Source of the DNA: a virus
DNA: 43,053 bases
Virus record (IMG/VR): IMGVR_UViG_3300037129_000178
Span: 1-43,053 of that record
Strand: one strand, 5' to 3'
Position 1 is the stretch's first letter; the number at the start of each line of letters is the position of its first letter. A program made the position numbers and the translations under genes. Of this stretch, positions 1,379-33,588 are shown in pieces. The notes below the pieces were generated by a model, which saw nothing but the letters and a program-made list of their open reading frames with translations, was not told the origin of the DNA and did no database searches.

Positions 1379-2769
1379 AGAAAAATGACGATATTATTGA
1401 TTTAGGCGAAGGATTTGCCTTTTTATCAAAAATAAAAACTGCGGTTGTCCCAATCACTGATACTACACGTATTCTTGCTGACCCGGATGTAATGTGGAAA
1501 ACAATTTCTGTTAAGGATGTACCAATTCAATACATCCCTTGGGGCAACAACGATAACATCCCATCGCAGATCATTAACAATGTTTACAAAAACCCTTCGT
1601 TAGCTACAGGTTTAGAATTTAATGTAATGTTAGGTTATGGCGACGGCATTATGCCTGTACGAAAAACACTTGAAAATAACCAATTGAAATTAATCCCGGT
1701 ACTGGATAATAAAGAGATCAATACTTTCTTGGACGATAATGATATTAATGGCTATTTTCTTGAGCAACTGACCGATTTAAAATTTATCTATAACGTTTTT
1801 CCTGAAGTAATTTTAAGCCGTGCAAAGGACCCTGCTAAACGCAAAGTTGTTGAAATTAACCACAAGGAAGCCACTTTTTCTAGGCTCCAGCGCATGGATC
1901 CAAATGGTATTATCCAAAATCATCTTTATTGCTCAAAATTTGGTAGCACATTAGCCATTAAGCCCGGTGATGTGACTATAACACCCATGTTGGATTACAA
2001 AAATCCTATACTTGATTTAAAGCGAAAACTTGGTTTATCGCCTCGCTTAAATGGCAAATATATATCTGAAAATCAATATCGGTACATTGTTCCAATGTAC
2101 CTTCCAACCCCTGGGCATTTCTATTATCAACAACCTTACTGGTGGAGCATATTTGAAAGCGGTTGGTTTGATTATGCTTGTGCGATCCCTAAATTCAAAA
2201 AAGCACTTCTCCAAAATCAAATGACCATCAAATATATGGTATACATTATGCCGGAATATTGGGCTGAACTATATACTGCCGAGGGTATCACCGATGCAAA
2301 GAAAAAGAAAGCCCGTATGGACCTGGAATATCAGAATATACAGGATTTCTTGTCGGGTGAAGACAATACAGGTAAGGCTGTAATTTCAAAAATAACCTAT
2401 CGGGATGGTAAAGAAAACCCTTACATTAAAATAGTGCCCATCGAAAACGCTTTCAAAGGTGGTGAATATATTGAGGATAGCCAGGAAGCTTCCAATATAA
2501 TTTCTTTTGCCCTTGGTGTGCATCCGGCAGTTATAGGGGCTGATAATAAAAGTGGGTCAATAAATGGCACTGAAGCCCGCGAACTATTTATTATCAAACA
2601 AGCCCTTATGAAACCTATCCGCGACCGCTTATTGCGCCCCTTGTATTTGGTAAAGGCTATTAACGGTTGGCCGGATGATATCCATTTCACTATCCCCAAT
2701 CTCGAACTTACTACGCTCGATGCGAATACCGGCGCAAAAAAAGTGATTTCTCAACCTGCTTTAAATTGA
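1375..2769 (+). CDS. Portal protein (putative)
   Basis: The 464-residue product has portal-like features: an N-terminal IPWGNNDNIP segment, a helical core, and a C-terminal part with SGSINGTEARELF followed by an IRDRLLRPL segment, as in portal families of Bacteroidota phages. Portals form the dodecameric ring through which terminase pumps DNA into the head. Context fits: connector-like genes and the tape measure follow, and the terminase genes would directly precede this block if the window is circular. The match is by general resemblance, so the call is probable rather than certain. Confidence 0.7.
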   Translation: MKKNDDIIDLGEGFAFLSKIKTAVVPITDTTRILADPDVMWKTISVKDVPIQYIPWGNNDNIPSQIINNVYKNPSLATGLEFNVMLGYGDGIMPVRKTLENNQLKLIPVLDNKEINTFLDDNDINGYFLEQLTDLKFIYNVFPEVILSRAKDPAKRKVVEINHKEATFSRLQRMDPNGIIQNHLYCSKFGSTLAIKPGDVTITPMLDYKNPILDLKRKLGLSPRLNGKYISENQYRYIVPMYLPTPGHFYYQQPYWWSIFESGWFDYACAIPKFKKALLQNQMTIKYMVYIMPEYWAELYTAEGITDAKKKKARMDLEYQNIQDFLSGEDNTGKAVISKITYRDGKENPYIKIVPIENAFKGGEYIEDSQEASNIISFALGVHPAVIGADNKSGSINGTEARELFIIKQALMKPIRDRLLRPLYLVKAINGWPDDIHFTIPNLELTTLDANTGAKKVISQPALN

Positions 2770-2773
2770 TGCT

Positions 2774-3730
2774 ATGCTTATAAAAACCCTTGATGAATTT
2801 CAGCAATATGTCCGCATAGTTGGCATATTTCCCGTCGAAACTTTAATCGCTTCAGTTCCGGATACACAAGCTAATTATTTTCCTGATGTCTTAGGTGATG
2901 AATTGCTTAACGATTTAGATGCCTGGTATGAAATTGGTGATGATAAACCCGATATCCCCCGTTATTCTGCATTACTCCCTTATGTTCAGAGGGCATTGGC
3001 TCGTTTTACAATTTTCATGGCATCGCCGGAACTGGATGTTACCATTACCGGCTCCGGTATCGGTGTAATCATGAACCAAAATATTGCCCCGGCTTCAGCC
3101 GATCGGGTTAAAAAATTCGACAATGCCAATGAGGAACGTGGTTGGGACAATATTGAAACATTGCTTATTTTCCTGGAAGATCATTTGAGCGATTATCCTG
3201 AATGGGTAAACTCGCCTGCCTATACGATGGATGTCCGTAATCTTATTAATTCGGCCATCGATTTCGATTTCTTCTATAATATCCAACGCTCACGGCTTAA
3301 ATTCAAATCACTCCGCCCGGTGATGGATAATATCGAAATGCTCAAAATTAGAAAGGTAATCAGTGATGAACTCTTCGATCGGATCCTAAATGAAATTAAA
3401 ACAGGCAGTATCACCGATCCAATTAAAAAAATCCTAAAAAAGCTGCAATTTTCGGTTGCGAATTACACCATGGCCGATGCTATGGATGGGGACAAATATC
3501 AAGGCCATGACCAAACAGTGAATGAGAATCGGTTTAACCGTGATTTGGCCTTATTTTTAAGCAATGGTGATAAATACCTTGCTGATGTAAGGACCACAAT
3601 CGATACTAATCCTGATGATTATCCGGAATATGTTAATTCTCCAATTTACATTGGAAATACTAATTATGGATTTACGAATGCTAAGGATAATACCATTTTT
3701 GTTTTTGGAGGGTCAAATGCATCAAATTAA
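2774..3730 (+). CDS. Head-tail region protein, DUF6712-like
   Basis: A soluble 318-residue protein with two internally similar segments: DYPEWVNSPAYTMDVRN near residue 140 and DDYPEYVNSPIYIGNTN near residue 280. It resembles a protein family found in Bacteroidota phages just downstream of the portal (I think DUF6712; not verified). Position and size suggest a connector or completion role in the virion. The 14-base overlap with the next gene suggests co-translation. Confidence 0.6.
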   Translation: MLIKTLDEFQQYVRIVGIFPVETLIASVPDTQANYFPDVLGDELLNDLDAWYEIGDDKPDIPRYSALLPYVQRALARFTIFMASPELDVTITGSGIGVIMNQNIAPASADRVKKFDNANEERGWDNIETLLIFLEDHLSDYPEWVNSPAYTMDVRNLINSAIDFDFFYNIQRSRLKFKSLRPVMDNIEMLKIRKVISDELFDRILNEIKTGSITDPIKKILKKLQFSVANYTMADAMDGDKYQGHDQTVNENRFNRDLALFLSNGDKYLADVRTTIDTNPDDYPEYVNSPIYIGNTNYGFTNAKDNTIFVFGGSNASN

Positions 3731-4562
3731 TATAAACGACATAAAATTAGAAATACCGGGGCATTGGAATGAACTCACCCGGGAACAATTACTCACTTTA
3801 GCCCGCATCGTCCGGGAAGAAATGGAATTGGAAGAATTAAAACTGAGGATGCTTTTTTTATTTACTGGCACCAAGGTTATTCGATGCCCTTCTGTATTGG
3901 TAAATGAAACGGAACGCTTTTTAATAAGGAACAAAAAACTGAAAGCACTGGTTTCAGCTCATGATTTAGCATTTATCACAACTCCTTTCCTTAAATTTTT
4001 TGTTGAAAAACCGAATAATCAGTGGTTACTTGGCTCAACGCTTACCAGACAGTTATTACCAATTATTAAAATTGGGCGTCAGGCACTCCATGGCCCGGCG
4101 GATGGTTTGTCAAACATTACTTTTCGCGAGTTTATTTTCACTGAAACATTTTTAAATGAAAATGCACATGATAAACTCATTGCGGTATTATATCGCCCTG
4201 CAGGAAAATCCAAACCCGGATCGCTTGATTATAATGGTGATATCCGCGAACGTTTTAATGACAATATCATTGATGACAGGGTTAAAGTAATATCCCGCAT
4301 GCCTGTTCATTTTAAAAAAGCAATAATGTGGTACTATGAAGGCTGTAAACAACACATTGCAGCTTTATTCCCTAATGTTTTTACTGAAGGCACTGGCGAA
4401 AAATCTACAAAAAGCACATTTGAGGCATTTATGGGCATTGTAGATGAACTCTCCAACAACCATCCGGCAGAACACGAACGTGTGCTCGATGTTTATTTAT
4501 ATTCAGCCCTACAATCACTTAACCAAAAAATTGAAAAACTAAATAAACATGTCGAAGTTTAA
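3717..4562 (+). CDS. Unknown protein of the head-tail module
   Basis: The start at 3717 is chosen because GGAGG stands seven bases before it and the product begins MHQININDIKLEIPGHWNEL. The frame opens earlier (3615), but that part lies wholly inside the preceding gene. The 281 residues are mainly helical and charged, without membrane segments. I do not recognise a domain; the gene shares 14-base overlaps with both neighbours, so it belongs to the structural operon. Confidence 0.65.
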   Translation: MHQININDIKLEIPGHWNELTREQLLTLARIVREEMELEELKLRMLFLFTGTKVIRCPSVLVNETERFLIRNKKLKALVSAHDLAFITTPFLKFFVEKPNNQWLLGSTLTRQLLPIIKIGRQALHGPADGLSNITFREFIFTETFLNENAHDKLIAVLYRPAGKSKPGSLDYNGDIRERFNDNIIDDRVKVISRMPVHFKKAIMWYYEGCKQHIAALFPNVFTEGTGEKSTKSTFEAFMGIVDELSNNHPAEHERVLDVYLYSALQSLNQKIEKLNKHVEV

Positions 4563-14475: not shown

Positions 14476-14610
14476 AATCAATCTTTTGATGATTGGGTGA
14501 ATGTGTATTCCGGCTACCATACCGGCACAGTAACCCGCTTATCACTTTTACGGATAAAAACAATATCGGACCGGTTTGAGCAATCATGTCCGGGAATAGA
14601 AAAAATTAAA

Positions 14611-15042
14611 ATGTCAATTAGTAATACCAGTTTTAAAAAAGGTCACGAATCCTGGTGTAAAGGAAAAACCGGATTAGTTGGCAATTATAAGCCCAATTCT
14701 GGCAGTTTTGAAAAAGGGCATAATGCAAAGCCCATTGGGGCGGTCAAAATAAAAAAAGACACTTCGACTAAAAAGCTGTATCTATTTATTAAAACAGAAA
14801 CCGGATGGAAATTAGCCCACAAGCATTTATGGGAATTACATAAGGGGCCTATTCCATCAGGGACCGTGATCCGGTTCAAGGATGGAAATTCCCTGAATTG
14901 CTTTATAGAGAATTTAGAATTGAAGGCAAAGGTTGATGTTTTGCAGGAAAATTCATTCAATAATTGGCCACCTGATTTAAGGGAAATAGCCAACCTAAAC
15001 GCCCAATTATTAAAAGCCATCAAAGAATATGAAAAACTTTAA
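14611..15042 (+). CDS. HNH-type homing endonuclease with NUMOD3 motifs
   Basis: Two NUMOD3-like motifs (FKKGHESWCKGKTG and FEKGHNAKPIG) precede an HNH_3-like region (LAHKHLWELHKGPIPSG, then FKDGNSLNCFIENLEL). The start at 14611 is preferred for its A-rich leader and because it begins just before the first NUMOD motif; an in-frame ATG at 14497 is the alternative. The C-terminal helix (LREIANLNAQLLKAIKEYE) matches the second HNH gene at 24609, so the two are paralogues. The usual central His before DGN is replaced (RFKDGN). It sits between fibre genes without a visible intron, so it is a free-standing mobile gene. Confidence 0.75.
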   Translation: MSISNTSFKKGHESWCKGKTGLVGNYKPNSGSFEKGHNAKPIGAVKIKKDTSTKKLYLFIKTETGWKLAHKHLWELHKGPIPSGTVIRFKDGNSLNCFIENLELKAKVDVLQENSFNNWPPDLREIANLNAQLLKAIKEYEKL

Positions 15043-22126: not shown

Positions 22127-22789
22127 TTATTTTAAAAAACCGTTCAACATTTCCGGCCTAAAATTCAATATCTTTTCCGATTTATTACCAAAATGCCTAC
22201 GTACATAGGCGAGAGTACTTTCTACGTCCTTATGCCCTAAATGGGACATTACCTCGATGATGGTTGCCCCTGTTTCCAATAATTTTCCTGCCCCTGTGTG
22301 CTTAAATGAGTAAAATTTATAGGTAGTTGGTAATTTTAAGTCTTTACGGTAAGCTGCAAATTTACGTGAGAAATAGTTCTTCCCCAGGGCGATGGATCCG
22401 GGTTCCCCTTCCCTGGAAAATATGTAGTAATCTCGTTGATATTCATTCAATTTAAAACTCATGCAAATTTCTGTTAGTGCATCTGGCATTGTAATTTTCC
22501 GTTTGCCTGTTTTACCATCCTGCTGAGAAATATGAACTAGGTTATTATAGAAATCCAAGTCTTGAATTTTAAGTAGCCTAAGTTCATTACCAGGCCTGCA
22601 ACAAAGAAAGAATTGCATAAGAGATGCAAGGAACATTTGTTTGTCATTTTTCGCCAGGTATTCCAGGAGTGTTTTCATATCCGTTTCAGTCATCGGCCTT
22701 GCAGCGTTATCCTTAATTTTTAGAGGCTTTACAATATCTTCAACAGGAGTTTTGTCAATTAATTTTTTCTTTATAAAAAACTTGAACAT
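22127..22789 (-). CDS. Tyrosine recombinase (integrase), catalytic domain only
   Basis: Catalytic elements are visible: R65 (CCRPGNELRLL), lysines around 94-97, box II as YSFKHTG (K163 in place of the usual Arg and Y160 in place of His), H186 in HLGHKDV and nucleophile Y195 in STLAYV. The 220 residues begin at the end of what is normally the SAM-like core-binding domain (FKFFIKKKLIDKTPVE), which is missing; upstream in frame come only AT-rich codons and then a stop at 22853-22855. It may be a truncated or minimal recombinase. It is the only clear minus-strand gene and has its own promoter-like site. Its presence marks a temperate phage. Confidence 0.8.
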   Translation of the reverse strand: MFKFFIKKKLIDKTPVEDIVKPLKIKDNAARPMTETDMKTLLEYLAKNDKQMFLASLMQFFLCCRPGNELRLLKIQDLDFYNNLVHISQQDGKTGKRKITMPDALTEICMSFKLNEYQRDYYIFSREGEPGSIALGKNYFSRKFAAYRKDLKLPTTYKFYSFKHTGAGKLLETGATIIEVMSHLGHKDVESTLAYVRRHFGNKSEKILNFRPEMLNGFLK

Positions 22790-24608: not shown

Positions 24609-25277
24609 ATGACTAAAAGCAAAGGCATATTAAAACGGTTTACCACGGAAGAAGATCAATACATCATTGATCATTTTGAAAGCCAAACGCTCGACGAAAT
24701 GGCATTAAATCTCGGTAGGGCTATGGGTTCAGTTGCCGGACGTTGCAGAAAATTTAAACTTAAATTATCAACAGAAATTTGGGAACAGAGAAAAATGATT
24801 TGCATCCGGGCCGCTTTAAAATACGGCGAAAATACCCGATTCAAAAAGGGTCAAACATCTTGGAATAAAGGCTCAAAAGGCCTTACAAATTCTAATAAAA
24901 CAAGCTTTAAAAAAGGGAATTTACCCCATAATACCAAACATGACGGATATATAACACTACGGGAAATGTCCGGGAAAACAAAATCAAAACGGCCTTATTT
25001 TTGGATCAGCTTAGAAAAAGGGAAGTGGGATTTATTGCACCGGTATATTTGGCGGTTGTATTATGGCCAAATCCCCCGTGGCGCTAATGTTCAGTTTAAA
25101 GATGGCAATTCCCTTAATTGCAAAATCGAAAACCTCGAATTAGTCTCCAAACCTGAGAATATGCAGCGCAATACTATCCGGAATTTACCTGCGGATATGA
25201 GAGAAATAATCATTTTAAACCGTCAAATCAATAAAATAATTAAAGAATATGAGCAAGGATATGTCGCACGTCCGTGA
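24609..25277 (+). CDS. HNH-type homing endonuclease with SANT-like and NUMOD3 domains
   Basis: Domains in order are a Myb/SANT-like helix-turn-helix (residues 8-55, RFTTEEDQYIIDHF then GSVAGRCRKFKL), two NUMOD3 motifs (FKKGQTSWNKG, FKKGNLPHN), and an HNH_3-like core (LLHRYIWRLYYGQIPRG and FKDGNSLNCKIENLEL). It is the full-length paralogue of the gene at 14611. The usual His before DGN is again replaced (QFKDGN), so activity may depend on another residue. It occurs free-standing between small early genes, and its end overlaps the next gene by 29 bases. Confidence 0.78.
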   Translation: MTKSKGILKRFTTEEDQYIIDHFESQTLDEMALNLGRAMGSVAGRCRKFKLKLSTEIWEQRKMICIRAALKYGENTRFKKGQTSWNKGSKGLTNSNKTSFKKGNLPHNTKHDGYITLREMSGKTKSKRPYFWISLEKGKWDLLHRYIWRLYYGQIPRGANVQFKDGNSLNCKIENLELVSKPENMQRNTIRNLPADMREIIILNRQINKIIKEYEQGYVARP

Positions 25278-31122: not shown

Positions 31123-31715
31123 TGAATTGCCCTTGTGGATGGTCCGGTAAAATATCCGAATTGACTGTATTTACTACAACCTACGATGCTATCGATTTAA
31201 CATATTGTCCAAAATGTAACAAATATTTAGAACTTAAAACAACTAAAATTATGGAATTAAAAATTGAAGAAACAACGGCCAAAAAGCTGTATCCTGAAAC
31301 ACCAGGTTGGTTTCAGGATATCTTAATCGAAACGTTCGGTAAAAAATGTTTCAAGAAAAGGGATTTTAACAGCATCAAAACATTTGAAGATGCCTGTAAC
31401 GAATTGGACATTAATTGTAATTCAGTTATTTATAGCAATGATTCCTCTGATGAAATTGCCTATAAAAAGCTGAAAATAATTGTAAAAGCGATCAACCAGG
31501 GATGGGTTCCTAATTGGGATGATTCGGATCAACGCAAATGGTTCCCTTATTTCAATCTTTCGTCCGGTTTCGGTTTTTCGGTTTCGGGTTACTACTTCGG
31601 TCGCACGGTTACGACTGTCGGTTCCCGCCTTTGCTTTGAATCAGAGGGAAAGGCCACTTATGCAGGAAAGCAATTTCAGGATATATATGAAGAATTATTA
31701 ACCATTAAAAATTAA
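31122..31715 (+). CDS. DGR target protein 1 (variable protein with N-terminal zinc ribbon)
   Basis: The ATG at 31122 overlaps the preceding stop as TGATG. The 197-residue product has a zinc ribbon at residues 3-34 (CPC ... CPKC), then the body KLYPETPGWFQDILIETFGK, TFEDACNEL and NQGWVPNWDDSDQRKWFPYF known from small proteins of Bacteroidota phages. The variable segment is residues 146-171, and a conserved tail (TYAGKQFQDIYEELL) closes it. An internal ATG at 31251 would give the usual family start without the zinc ribbon. It has no secretion signal, so the diversified surface probably acts inside the cell or in the particle. Second target follows four bases on. Confidence 0.88.
   Translation: MNCPCGWSGKISELTVFTTTYDAIDLTYCPKCNKYLELKTTKIMELKIEETTAKKLYPETPGWFQDILIETFGKKCFKKRDFNSIKTFEDACNELDINCNSVIYSNDSSDEIAYKKLKIIVKAINQGWVPNWDDSDQRKWFPYFNLSSGFGFSVSGYYFGRTVTTVGSRLCFESEGKATYAGKQFQDIYEELLTIKN
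31557..31634 (+). repeat. DGR variable repeat 1 (VR1)
   Basis: These 78 bases match the template repeat 32157-32234 at all 57 positions where the template is not A. Of the 21 template adenines, 16 are substituted (nine to G, five to T, two to C) and five remain A. Similarity stops abruptly on both sides. This is the footprint of adenine-specific mutagenic retrohoming. Confidence 0.97.
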
Positions 31716-31719
31716 AAAC

Positions 31720-32121
31720 ATGGCAACAAAAACTAAAAAAACAACAAAAAAAGCGTTCGATTTCAGGACTATTAAAACCTTTGAAGATGCATGCAAAAAA
31801 TTAGGGCTTGACCCTTTATCTCTTCCTGCATTAACAGGCGAGTTCTTAAAACCAATCATTGCAGCCTATAAACTAATGGTCATTTACAAGGCTGTCAATG
31901 ATGGATGGGTACCAGATTGGGGAAACGATAACCAAAATAAATACTATCCTTGGTTTTGGGTTCTTTCGTCCGGTTTCGGTTTTTCGGCTTCGGATTTCCA
32001 CTTCGGTTACGCGCGTACGGATGTCGGTTCCCGCCTTTGCACTAATACTTCAGAAAAAGCAAGATACATGGCTGAACAATTTGAAAACGAGTATCGCGAA
32101 TATTTTCTTTATTCAGAATAA
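31720..32121 (+). CDS. DGR target protein 2 (variable protein)
   Basis: The 133-residue paralogue of target 1 lacks the zinc ribbon but shares TIKTFEDACKKL, KAVNDGWVPDW and the YYPWFWVLSSGFGFS entry to the variable segment (residues 82-107). The C-terminal region ARYMAEQFENEYREYF also matches. A basic leader (MATKTKKTTKKAFDF) replaces the N-terminal part. Paired targets behind one template suggest that the two products are diversified together or alternately. Partner and ligand are unknown; no signal peptide or membrane segment is present. Confidence 0.88.
   Translation: MATKTKKTTKKAFDFRTIKTFEDACKKLGLDPLSLPALTGEFLKPIIAAYKLMVIYKAVNDGWVPDWGNDNQNKYYPWFWVLSSGFGFSASDFHFGYARTDVGSRLCTNTSEKARYMAEQFENEYREYFLYSE
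31963..32040 (+). repeat. DGR variable repeat 2 (VR2)
   Basis: These 78 bases equal the template at all 57 non-adenine positions. Sixteen of 21 adenines are changed (nine to G, four to T, three to C). Three further bases upstream (31960-31962) also match the template. The substituted set differs from VR1 at many positions, so the two repeats were mutagenised independently. Confidence 0.97.
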
Positions 32122-32135
32122 TTAAAAAAGGTTGT

Positions 32136-32324
32136 ATGCTGCGGATGCTGTCAGTTCTTTCGTCCAGTTTCAGTTTTTCGGATTCGAATTACAACTACGA
32201 TAACACGAATACGAATGTCAGTTCCCACCTATGCGATATTTACAGCATAGACCGTGCCAACATGGCAAAAAACAAACATTTTAAAAGAGCGTTGGTAATT
32301 GCACTCAATGAAAGCGATCTTTAA
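32136..32324 (+). CDS. Open frame spanning the DGR template repeat
   Basis: A 62-residue frame runs through the template in the same phase as the target genes. Its centre reads SDSNYNYDNTNTNV, the unmutated ancestor of both variable segments. The rest (SIDRANMAKNKHFKRALVI) does not resemble the target tails. The frame may be a remnant of the gene from which the template arose, or it may be open only because the template avoids stop codons. Protein production is doubtful; the RNA is the functional product. Confidence 0.4.
   Translation: MLRMLSVLSSSFSFSDSNYNYDNTNTNVSSHLCDIYSIDRANMAKNKHFKRALVIALNESDL
32157..32234 (+). repeat. DGR template repeat (TR)
   Basis: The template contains 21 adenines in 78 bases. 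Seven codons have the AAY or TAY form (five AAY, two TAC), in which changing A positions gives many residues but never a stop. It lies 102 bases before the reverse transcriptase ATG and downstream of both variable repeats, the usual VR-TR-RT order. Its transcript is presumably copied by the reverse transcriptase with errors at A. Confidence 0.96.
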
Positions 32325-32336
32325 AAAGCAAAGGCA

Positions 32337-33296
32337 ATGAAAAGGATCAATAATTTGTACGAAAAGATATATAACATTGAAAACCTTGAATTAGCTGACC
32401 AGATTGCCAGAAAAGGCAAATCGGATCAGCCTGGGGTAATCCTGCACGATAAAAACCGGGAAGAAAATATCCAATCATTGTATAGGATGCTGAAGGATAA
32501 AACTTACAGGACATCGGATTACACAACGTTCAAAATATTTGAACCAAAAGAACGTATAATATTCCGGTTGCCCTATTTTCCCGACCGTATCACACACCAT
32601 GCGGTTATGAATATCCTTGAACCTATATTTGTAAACACTTTCACGGTTGATACATATAGTTGCATTAAAAAGCGGGGAATACATGCCGCTGCCAATGCTG
32701 TTAAATTAGCCTTAAAAGATACATCAGATACTCAATTTTGTTTGAAACTTGATATTAAGAAGTTTTATCCCAGCATTGATCACACTGTATTGAAACAATT
32801 GCTCCGGAGAAAATTTAAGGATAAAGATCTGCTATGGCTCCTGGATGAAATAATAGATAGCACAGATGGCCTACCCATCGGAAATTATTTGAGCCAATAC
32901 TTCGCAAATTTTTATCTAGCTTATTTTGATCACTGGATGAAGGAAGAAAAGCACGTTAGGTACTATTTTCGTTATGCCGATGACCTAGTAATATTATCAT
33001 CCAATAAGCCTTATTTACATGAATTGCTCGCTGAAATAAGGACTTATCTTGATGAAAAGCTTAAACTTACCATCAAACATACTTACCAAGTTTTCCCGGT
33101 TAATGATAGGGGTATCGACTTTGTTGGTTATGTTTTCAGGCACACCCATACATTGTTAAGGAAAAGCATAAAACAGAATTTTGCCCGGATGCTGGCATCA
33201 AACAAAAATAAACAATCTATAGCTAGTTACAGGGGATGGGCTTGCCATTGTAACAGCAAAAACTTACTAAAAAAACTACTACATGAACAACTTTAA
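32337..33296 (+). CDS. DGR reverse transcriptase
   Basis: The 319-residue protein carries the reverse transcriptase palm motifs LDIKKFYPSIDH (D139) and YADD (213-216). Motif 4 reads IGNYLSQ (181-187), the (I/V/L)GxxxSQ signature that separates DGR enzymes from group II intron and retron types and is linked to adenine infidelity. The thumb end FVGYVFRHTHTLLRKSIKQN is also typical. The length is near the family norm and there is no maturase or nuclease domain. It makes error-prone cDNA of the template RNA for transfer into VR1 and VR2. Its end overlaps the following gene by 14 bases. Confidence 0.95.
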   Translation: MKRINNLYEKIYNIENLELADQIARKGKSDQPGVILHDKNREENIQSLYRMLKDKTYRTSDYTTFKIFEPKERIIFRLPYFPDRITHHAVMNILEPIFVNTFTVDTYSCIKKRGIHAAANAVKLALKDTSDTQFCLKLDIKKFYPSIDHTVLKQLLRRKFKDKDLLWLLDEIIDSTDGLPIGNYLSQYFANFYLAYFDHWMKEEKHVRYYFRYADDLVILSSNKPYLHELLAEIRTYLDEKLKLTIKHTYQVFPVNDRGIDFVGYVFRHTHTLLRKSIKQNFARMLASNKNKQSIASYRGWACHCNSKNLLKKLLHEQL

Positions 33297-33588
33297 CCAA
33301 TTCAATATAAAAATTACCACAAAAAATTTTGAAGGCAACAAAATAAAGATGGCCAAAATATTAAACCGCGAAATTGTTGTATATGACTTTCGGTTGGATG
33401 ATTCAAAGTGCTTCAAGGATAAGGGTACAGGAAAATGCCTTCAATTGCAGATATCAATCAATAGTGAAAAGCATGTTGTATTTACATCTTCATCAGGCCT
33501 TATTGAAGCAATCCATCAGGTACCTGAAAGTGGGTTTCCCTTTACAACAACGATTATAGAAGAAAATGACAGGTTTAAGTTTACTTGA
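33283..33588 (+). CDS. Small protein coupled to the reverse transcriptase, possible DGR accessory factor
   Basis: The 101-residue product starts inside the last codons of the reverse transcriptase gene, implying coupled translation. It is beta-rich (NREIVVYDFRLDDSKCF, CLQLQISINSEKHVVFTS, PFTTTIIEENDRFKFT), looking like an OB-type nucleic-acid-binding protein. Similar small proteins occur in Bacteroidota phages. It is unlike the four-helix Avd accessory protein; no Avd-like gene is seen in the locus. A role in the retroelement is inference from the overlap. Confidence 0.6.
   Translation: MNNFNQFNIKITTKNFEGNKIKMAKILNREIVVYDFRLDDSKCFKDKGTGKCLQLQISINSEKHVVFTSSSGLIEAIHQVPESGFPFTTTIIEENDRFKFT

Follow-up and report, generated by a model that had tools for sequence, protein, structure and literature searches.

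The DNA analyzed here, a virus record of 43,053 nucleotides (the window hereafter), very probably carries a complete phage diversity-generating retroelement (DGR), which is arranged in the order of target gene 1, target gene 2, template repeat (TR), structured RNA, reverse transcriptase (RT), and a gene for a 101-aa protein, which moves between phages as a unit, and in which homing would proceed as in the DGR of BPP-1, with the 101-aa protein most likely taking the place of Avd beside the RT. The parts of this cassette are as follows.

31251..31715, plus strand: target gene 1 (154 aa, phrog_11581), with VR1 near its 3' end and a relative in 99 of 109 loci
31557..31634, plus strand: variable repeat 1 (VR1), from the TR/VR alignment
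31720..32121, plus strand: target gene 2 (133 aa, phrog_11581), with VR2 near its 3' end and a relative in 96 of 109 loci
31963..32040, plus strand: variable repeat 2 (VR2), from the TR/VR alignment
32157..32234, plus strand: TR (78 nt), from the alignment and a pattern scan of the record
32166..32172, plus strand: 5' fixed TR/VR differences (TR adenines at 32166 and 32172, G in the VRs)
32220..32231, plus strand: 3' fixed TR/VR differences, read as IMH*/IMH-like (32220 and 32227, G in the VRs; 32231, T in the VRs)
32250..32332, plus strand: predicted structured RNA between TR and RT, similar to Rfam RT-17 (37.7 bits, E 6e-5; covariation)
32337..33296, plus strand: DGR RT (319 aa), from RVT_1, phrog_1423, a PDB match, and a tree
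33283..33588, plus strand: 101-aa companion gene (phrog_19665), a conserved candidate accessory factor overlapping the 3' end of the RT gene by 14 nt

The original prediction had placed the element at 31557-33296; this stretch indeed holds the core, but the full cassette is longer, beginning with target gene 1 at 31251 and extending through the conserved 101-aa gene to 33588. Among 109 non-redundant loci, the RT was found in 109, the 101-aa gene in 104, target 1 in 99, and target 2 in 96, whereas the other neighboring genes of the window recur in only 0-15 of the 109 and mostly at other places; the block is therefore considered to move as a unit. An ORF lying over the TR (32136-32324) was also considered as a gene but was set aside, because its similarity in 56 of the 109 loci is explained by the underlying TR and RNA.

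The three 78-nt repeats align without gaps, and their positions, lengths, and counts proved to be exactly those originally predicted. The TR contains 21 adenines, 16 of which are changed in VR1 (9 to G, 5 to T, and 2 to C) and 16 in VR2 (9 to G, 4 to T, and 3 to C), while none of the 57 non-adenine positions is changed in either VR; realignment thus confirmed that all of the 32 differences fall on adenines (18 to G, 9 to T, and 5 to C). If the 16 mismatches were distributed over the 78 positions by chance, all of them would coincide with the 21 adenines with a probability of 1.2e-12 for each VR. When the TR was used as a pattern with its adenines read as any base, three places (TR, VR1, and VR2) and no fourth copy were hit in the 43-kb record. 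Thirteen adenines are changed in both VRs, eight of them to the same new base, and the TR adenines correspond to codon position 1 or 2 of both targets except for the one at position 75. In the family, a median of 78 nt separates the end of the VR from the stop codon, and the TR ends ~100 nt before the RT.

The RT encoded at 32337-33296 contains the predicted motifs, IGNYLSQ and YADD, and matches RVT_1 in Pfam as well as phrog_1423. Against solved structures, the best match was PDB 8ub7 (E 1.7e-42; the next best, 6e-17), an entry labeled "Reverse transcriptase" with 328 aa, the same length as the BPP-1 RT, and we take it to be the RT of the BPP-1 DGR. In a quick tree, all of the 56 DGR-type RTs including those of BPP-1 and ANMV-1 were split from group II intron RTs at a value of 100, although BPP-1 is on a long branch and its exact placement is unsure. 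The phylogenetic check proposed for the RT hence gave the expected answer; namely, the window RT falls among DGR RTs and apart from group II intron RTs. Taken together, the adenine bias between TR and VRs, the motifs, the similarity of the RT, and its position in the tree bear out the predicted identity, and the cassette is a genuine DGR. Indeed, the RT motif and clade, the adenine-only TR/VR differences, the VR near the 3' end of the target, the TR near the RT, and the IMH-like differences at the 3' end were all found here. Avd and a hairpin of the BPP-1 type are common in DGRs but were treated as non-defining; no Pfam match to Avd was obtained in the neighboring ORFs, no PF05635 in the 43-kb record, and no short GC-rich inverted repeat (BPP-1-type hairpin or cruciform) just after VR1 or VR2.

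The idea that all of the 32 differences are products of random mutagenesis was, nonetheless, not borne out, because five of the TR adenines are sites of TR/VR differences that are fixed across the family. In 94 loci, a TR adenine was replaced by G in the VRs at position 10 (56/56), 16 (120/122), 64 (166/167), and 71 (154/155), while the core TR adenines appeared in the VRs as A (869), G (701), T (431), or C (256). At position 75, T was found in 115 of the 116 VRs whose TR has A and also in 9 of the 9 whose TR has G or C. These family-wide tables rule out chance as the source of the five shared substitutions, and positions 10, 16, 64, 71, and 75 are fixed TR/VR differences throughout the family but not results of random mutagenesis. 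The five sites account for 10 of the 32 differences, leaving 22 that may be taken as random (10 G, 7 T, and 5 C), i.e., 11 per VR. As a single TR/VR alignment cannot separate fixed differences from true mutagenesis, the family-wide comparison is required for this purpose. The core substitutions still differ between VR1 and VR2, and separate homing events are therefore needed for the two VRs, just as predicted.

In terms of their function, we read the 3' fixed differences as signals of the IMH/IMH* type, the IMH having been described for BPP-1 (PMC3240598); at least three fixed differences lie within 12 nt at the 3' end in 71 of 79 loci. It is also conceivable, albeit rather improbable in our estimate, that the G or T fixed at these five sites of the VRs results only from selection for residues of the targets (Gly, Gly, Gly, and Arg) instead of marking signals that distinguish a VR from the TR. 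The residues at these positions are indeed part of conserved target motifs (SSGFGFS and VGSRLC), G is already present at the 5' sites in some TRs, and the non-adenine positions in the flanks of VRs match their own TR. The change at position 75 (CTA to CTT) is, however, synonymous, and selection on the protein therefore fails to explain the T that is fixed there irrespective of the TR base; furthermore, the TR keeps A at position 64 in 77 of 79 cases, despite the almost invariable G in the VRs. Signals of the IMH/IMH* type thus remain our reading of the 3' sites, whereas the 5' fixed differences may reflect selection for glycine.

Comparison of close relatives shows that both VRs diversify in this DGR family. 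Between a viral contig (L061) and a Chitinophagaceae MAG (L092), 21 differences were found in 16,964 bases, all of which are at template adenines, with 11 in VR1, 10 in VR2, and none elsewhere. Another pair (L084 and L006) has 9 differences in VR1, again all at template adenines and with the 3' fixed sites unchanged, together with further differences outside the VRs. The L029-L032 group has a core adenine pattern like that of L061/L092 and unchanged 3' fixed sites, and the L029 group also has two VR2 differences at non-adenine sites and ~13 outside the VRs. A search for adenine-only variation had been proposed as a check, and as run on the relatives, it thus found variation in both VRs at template adenines.

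For the window phage itself, we infer that homing takes place as well. The cassette could alternatively be an inactive remnant, in which the VRs record past homing only, and decayed cassettes do occur, as exemplified by a locus without most of the RT (L240). This is, however, highly improbable, given that the RT, the TR, the RNA, and both target frames are intact in the window and that drift at non-adenine positions is 0/57 in either VR, which is expected only with recent homing. By analogy with BPP-1, an active cassette would work as follows: the TR and the folded RNA downstream would be transcribed, the RT would copy the TR with misincorporation opposite adenines, and the resulting cDNA would replace VR1 or VR2, with the 3' fixed differences making the VRs, rather than the TR, its destination. 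One such event could rewrite up to ~16 core adenines, all of which are in codon positions 1 and 2, and would thereby alter a patch toward the C-terminal end in the two sister proteins, both of which are small. The 101-aa protein is proposed to work with the RT instead of Avd and may be a small protein that binds nucleic acids.

The two targets behind one TR had been regarded as unusual, but this was not borne out, as they are the usual arrangement in this lineage. In 124 related RT loci scanned for repeats, with the scan limited to TRs near the RT, TR/VR sets were found in 115 and at least two VRs in 105; several of the loci without a TR/VR set begin too near the RT to reveal repeats. Based on the repeat offset, 87 loci have two VRs, 16 have three, and 2 have four, where the latter two classes are slightly inflated by a few offsets that represent VR-VR matches. 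The order of VR1, VR2, TR, and RT with spacings of ~600 and 194 nt recurs among the related loci, those with multiple VRs mostly sharing one order, and the two target proteins are sisters with 47% identity over 114 aa. Multiple VRs were present in about a seventh of the DGRs in a 2012 set (PMC3521204), and phage DGRs with two targets have been published, namely, those of Bacuni phages (PMC8143477), the tentaclins of nd4/nd12 (PMC10743442), and Quimbyvirus (PMC8008677), in all of which one RT diversifies two genes as in the window. In contrast, the targets in these three examples have matches to C-type lectin or DUF1566, while those in the window are adjacent sister genes with no recognized fold; also, the Bacuni phages have Avd, but none was found in the window. 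In four loci (L042, L044, L063, and L121), extra VRs of the same TR lie 4 to 7 kb upstream, and the targets that hold them are again small sisters. In L240 (~2600-4300), both targets, the TR, and the RNA are intact, and the RT is mostly deleted so that its start is joined to the 101-aa gene.

As predicted, neither target resembles a known tail fiber in Pfam or PDB, and indeed, profile searches of the targets in Pfam, NCBIfam, and PDB gave nothing usable. An AlphaFold model of target 1 consists largely of helices, and its VR region, where the pLDDT is ~60, contains a short hairpin; compared with PDB, this model had no structure match, and it matched uncharacterized phage proteins only. Annotated VR regions were reported to be systematically C-type lectin folds (PMC8144416), which the present model does not contradict. 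By analogy, the patch altered by the changes in the VRs most likely serves to bind a partner that itself varies, e.g., a ligand on the host surface, and host attachment is the known or inferred role of most of the phage DGR targets to which a role has been given (PMC8144416, PMC10743442). These precedents speak against another possibility, on which we remain doubtful but which deserves some weight, that the targets act inside the cell (e.g., against host defense) and not as receptor-binding proteins of the virion. Consistent with an intracellular role, the targets have no match to tail or lectin proteins, the genes flanking the cassette are not conserved, a relative of the targets in phage Versailles (L164:7875-8456) is among genes for recombination and replication, in L106 a weak MazE-like match, which is below the cut-off, lies ahead of a related variable domain, and a DGR target of Quimbyvirus is within a defense-related island (PMC8008677).

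Regarding individual relatives of the targets, the protein of phage Versailles is annotated as a tail protein, and no RT match was found within the 16 kb examined. The target in L106 (6854-7789) has 313 aa, and its N-terminal MazE-like match (E 0.0022, below the cut-off) precedes the related variable domain.

Between the TR and the RT, the presence of an RNA structure is supported by covariation. Three helices are common to 54 loci, with 96.1% of the cells paired as compared to 35-46% in slid versions, and changes on both sides (compensatory changes) were found in 9 of the 11 pairs of the helices. The window RNA is like the RT-17 RNA of Rfam (RF03020) in its structure and its position between TR and RT, but its score (37.7 bits, E 6e-5) is slightly below the gathering score of 40.4; the RNA of another locus (L111) scored above it. 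For BPP-1, an interaction between the RNA after the TR and the RT complex has been proposed (PMC8867640), which suggests that the window RNA is likely to play the same role.

BPP-1 needs Avd for its DGR. For the DGR in the window, we consider that the 101-aa protein is most likely a candidate accessory factor of the RT in place of Avd, as judged from the association of the two genes. When viral loci were collected by the 101-aa family, the RT was directly upstream in 76 of 80 with a gap of -10 to +33 nt; as for the other four, three begin at a contig end, and one is L240 without most of the RT. Only 5 of 395 genomes of the same phylum (the seed included) have the 101-aa gene, each near a related RT, and in an annotated phage collection, the family had matches only in ANMV-1 and vir525, archaeal viruses with unrelated targets, where it directly follows the DGR RT. 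Furthermore, the RT and the 101-aa protein are fused in frame in L117 (421 aa), L132 (428 aa), and Bacteroides phage BT-TP2 (431 aa), and the RTs with a C-terminal 101-aa domain are located at L117:8001-9263, L132:8001-9284, and L165:1999-3294. The RTs of L132 and BT-TP2 group at a value of 99 in the quick tree, pointing to at least one, perhaps two, fusion events. The 101-aa gene is not universal, being absent beside most of the RTs below ~50% identity.

The DGR could be real and the 101-aa gene still an unrelated cargo, which stays next to the RT owing to the gene order of phages or to translational coupling and has no part in homing. The lack of any fold or family match for the protein and the lack of the gene in most distant DGRs would fit such a cargo; nonetheless, we regard this as unlikely, since the gene accompanies DGR RTs in phages of Bacteroidota, in archaeal viruses, and in an alphaproteobacterial element (upstream of the RT in the last) with different targets, shares a single reading frame with the RT in three elements as a fusion, and is almost never found without an RT. 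An accessory factor is thus the preferred reading, and in a broader and only tentative form, to which we would give somewhat less than an even chance, phrog_19665 would serve a large branch of DGRs, present both in phages of bacteria and in viruses of archaea, as an accessory factor, replacing Avd, sometimes becoming a domain of the RT, and forming a cDNA-making complex with the conserved RNA after the TR, where the targets served here would have a variable domain other than the C-type lectin.

No significant match to the 101-aa protein was obtained in Pfam, NCBIfam, and PDB in profile or structure searches. Its structural model (pLDDT 84) has an order of strands and helix that fits an OB fold (a five-strand barrel with a helix between strands 3 and 4), and the structure matches, all weak with E > 0.1, include TDRD3, RPA, and some further proteins that contain OB folds. 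No paper describing the family was found in the literature searched; a survey of DGR accessory genes by Wu et al. in 2018, which was outside this search, reportedly names some conserved hypothetical accessory genes. The bbp4 gene of BPP-1, which similarly overlaps brt, was compared as a possible homologue and rejected. The contig of L084 was noticed to have a second 101-aa gene (L176, G008:C92:64121-67423), which a different RT with 47% identity precedes by ~635 nt. In an alphaproteobacterial element, the 101-aa gene (L142:7176-7538) is upstream of the RT; a locus with the identical RT (L141) has no detected copy of the gene in its short contig, which begins near the RT.

Compared with the BPP-1 DGR (mtd, avd, TR, and brt), the window shares the RT clade and motifs, the adenine-only differences between TR and VR, the TR just upstream of the RT, the 3' TR/VR differences, and the RNA region after the TR. 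The window differs in having two targets, no Avd found, a short TR of 78 nt, ~75 nt of coding sequence after the VR with no GC-rich hairpin there, and, following the RT, a 101-aa gene unrelated to bbp4. The DGR of the archaeal virus ANMV-1 (PMC4372165) has an RT of the same broad clade and a homologue of the 101-aa protein 2 nt after the RT, but its single target, adtA, is unrelated to the targets in the window. Among the DGRs of crass-like phages (PMC7290462, PMC12386605), the RT is up to 60% identical to the window RT, and Avd is usually missing in the zeta group (PMC12386605) as in the window; unlike the window, however, their targets are tail fiber or collar proteins. The variable C-termini of their RTs could include the 101-aa domain in some cases, but this was not detected in crAssphage LMMB, whose C-terminal extension was unsupported as such a domain by HMM or profile comparison.

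As a DGR, therefore, the window adds one more member and is otherwise ordinary; less ordinary is the RT traveling with a 101-aa partner, to which it is sometimes fused. In viruses of both bacteria and archaea, a widespread group of DGRs appears to do without Avd and to keep instead a small gene that follows the RT; the 101-aa gene is hence a concrete candidate, open to testing, for what enables DGRs to function without Avd.

The record encodes an integrase, a DNA primase, and a head maturation protease, and the window phage thus looks like a temperate tailed phage. The RTs closest to the window RT are in Prolixibacteraceae MAGs and uncultured viruses, which suggests a host in Bacteroidota. No near-identical record of the phage was found in the collections searched, and a search of further viral contigs for its TR pattern found none. 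Elsewhere in the window, two HNH endonucleases of one family (phrog_1891) are encoded at 14497-15042 and 24609-25277, and an integrase-like ORF of 220 aa on the minus strand (22127-22789) matches phrog_1, a longer profile, in its C-terminal part only.
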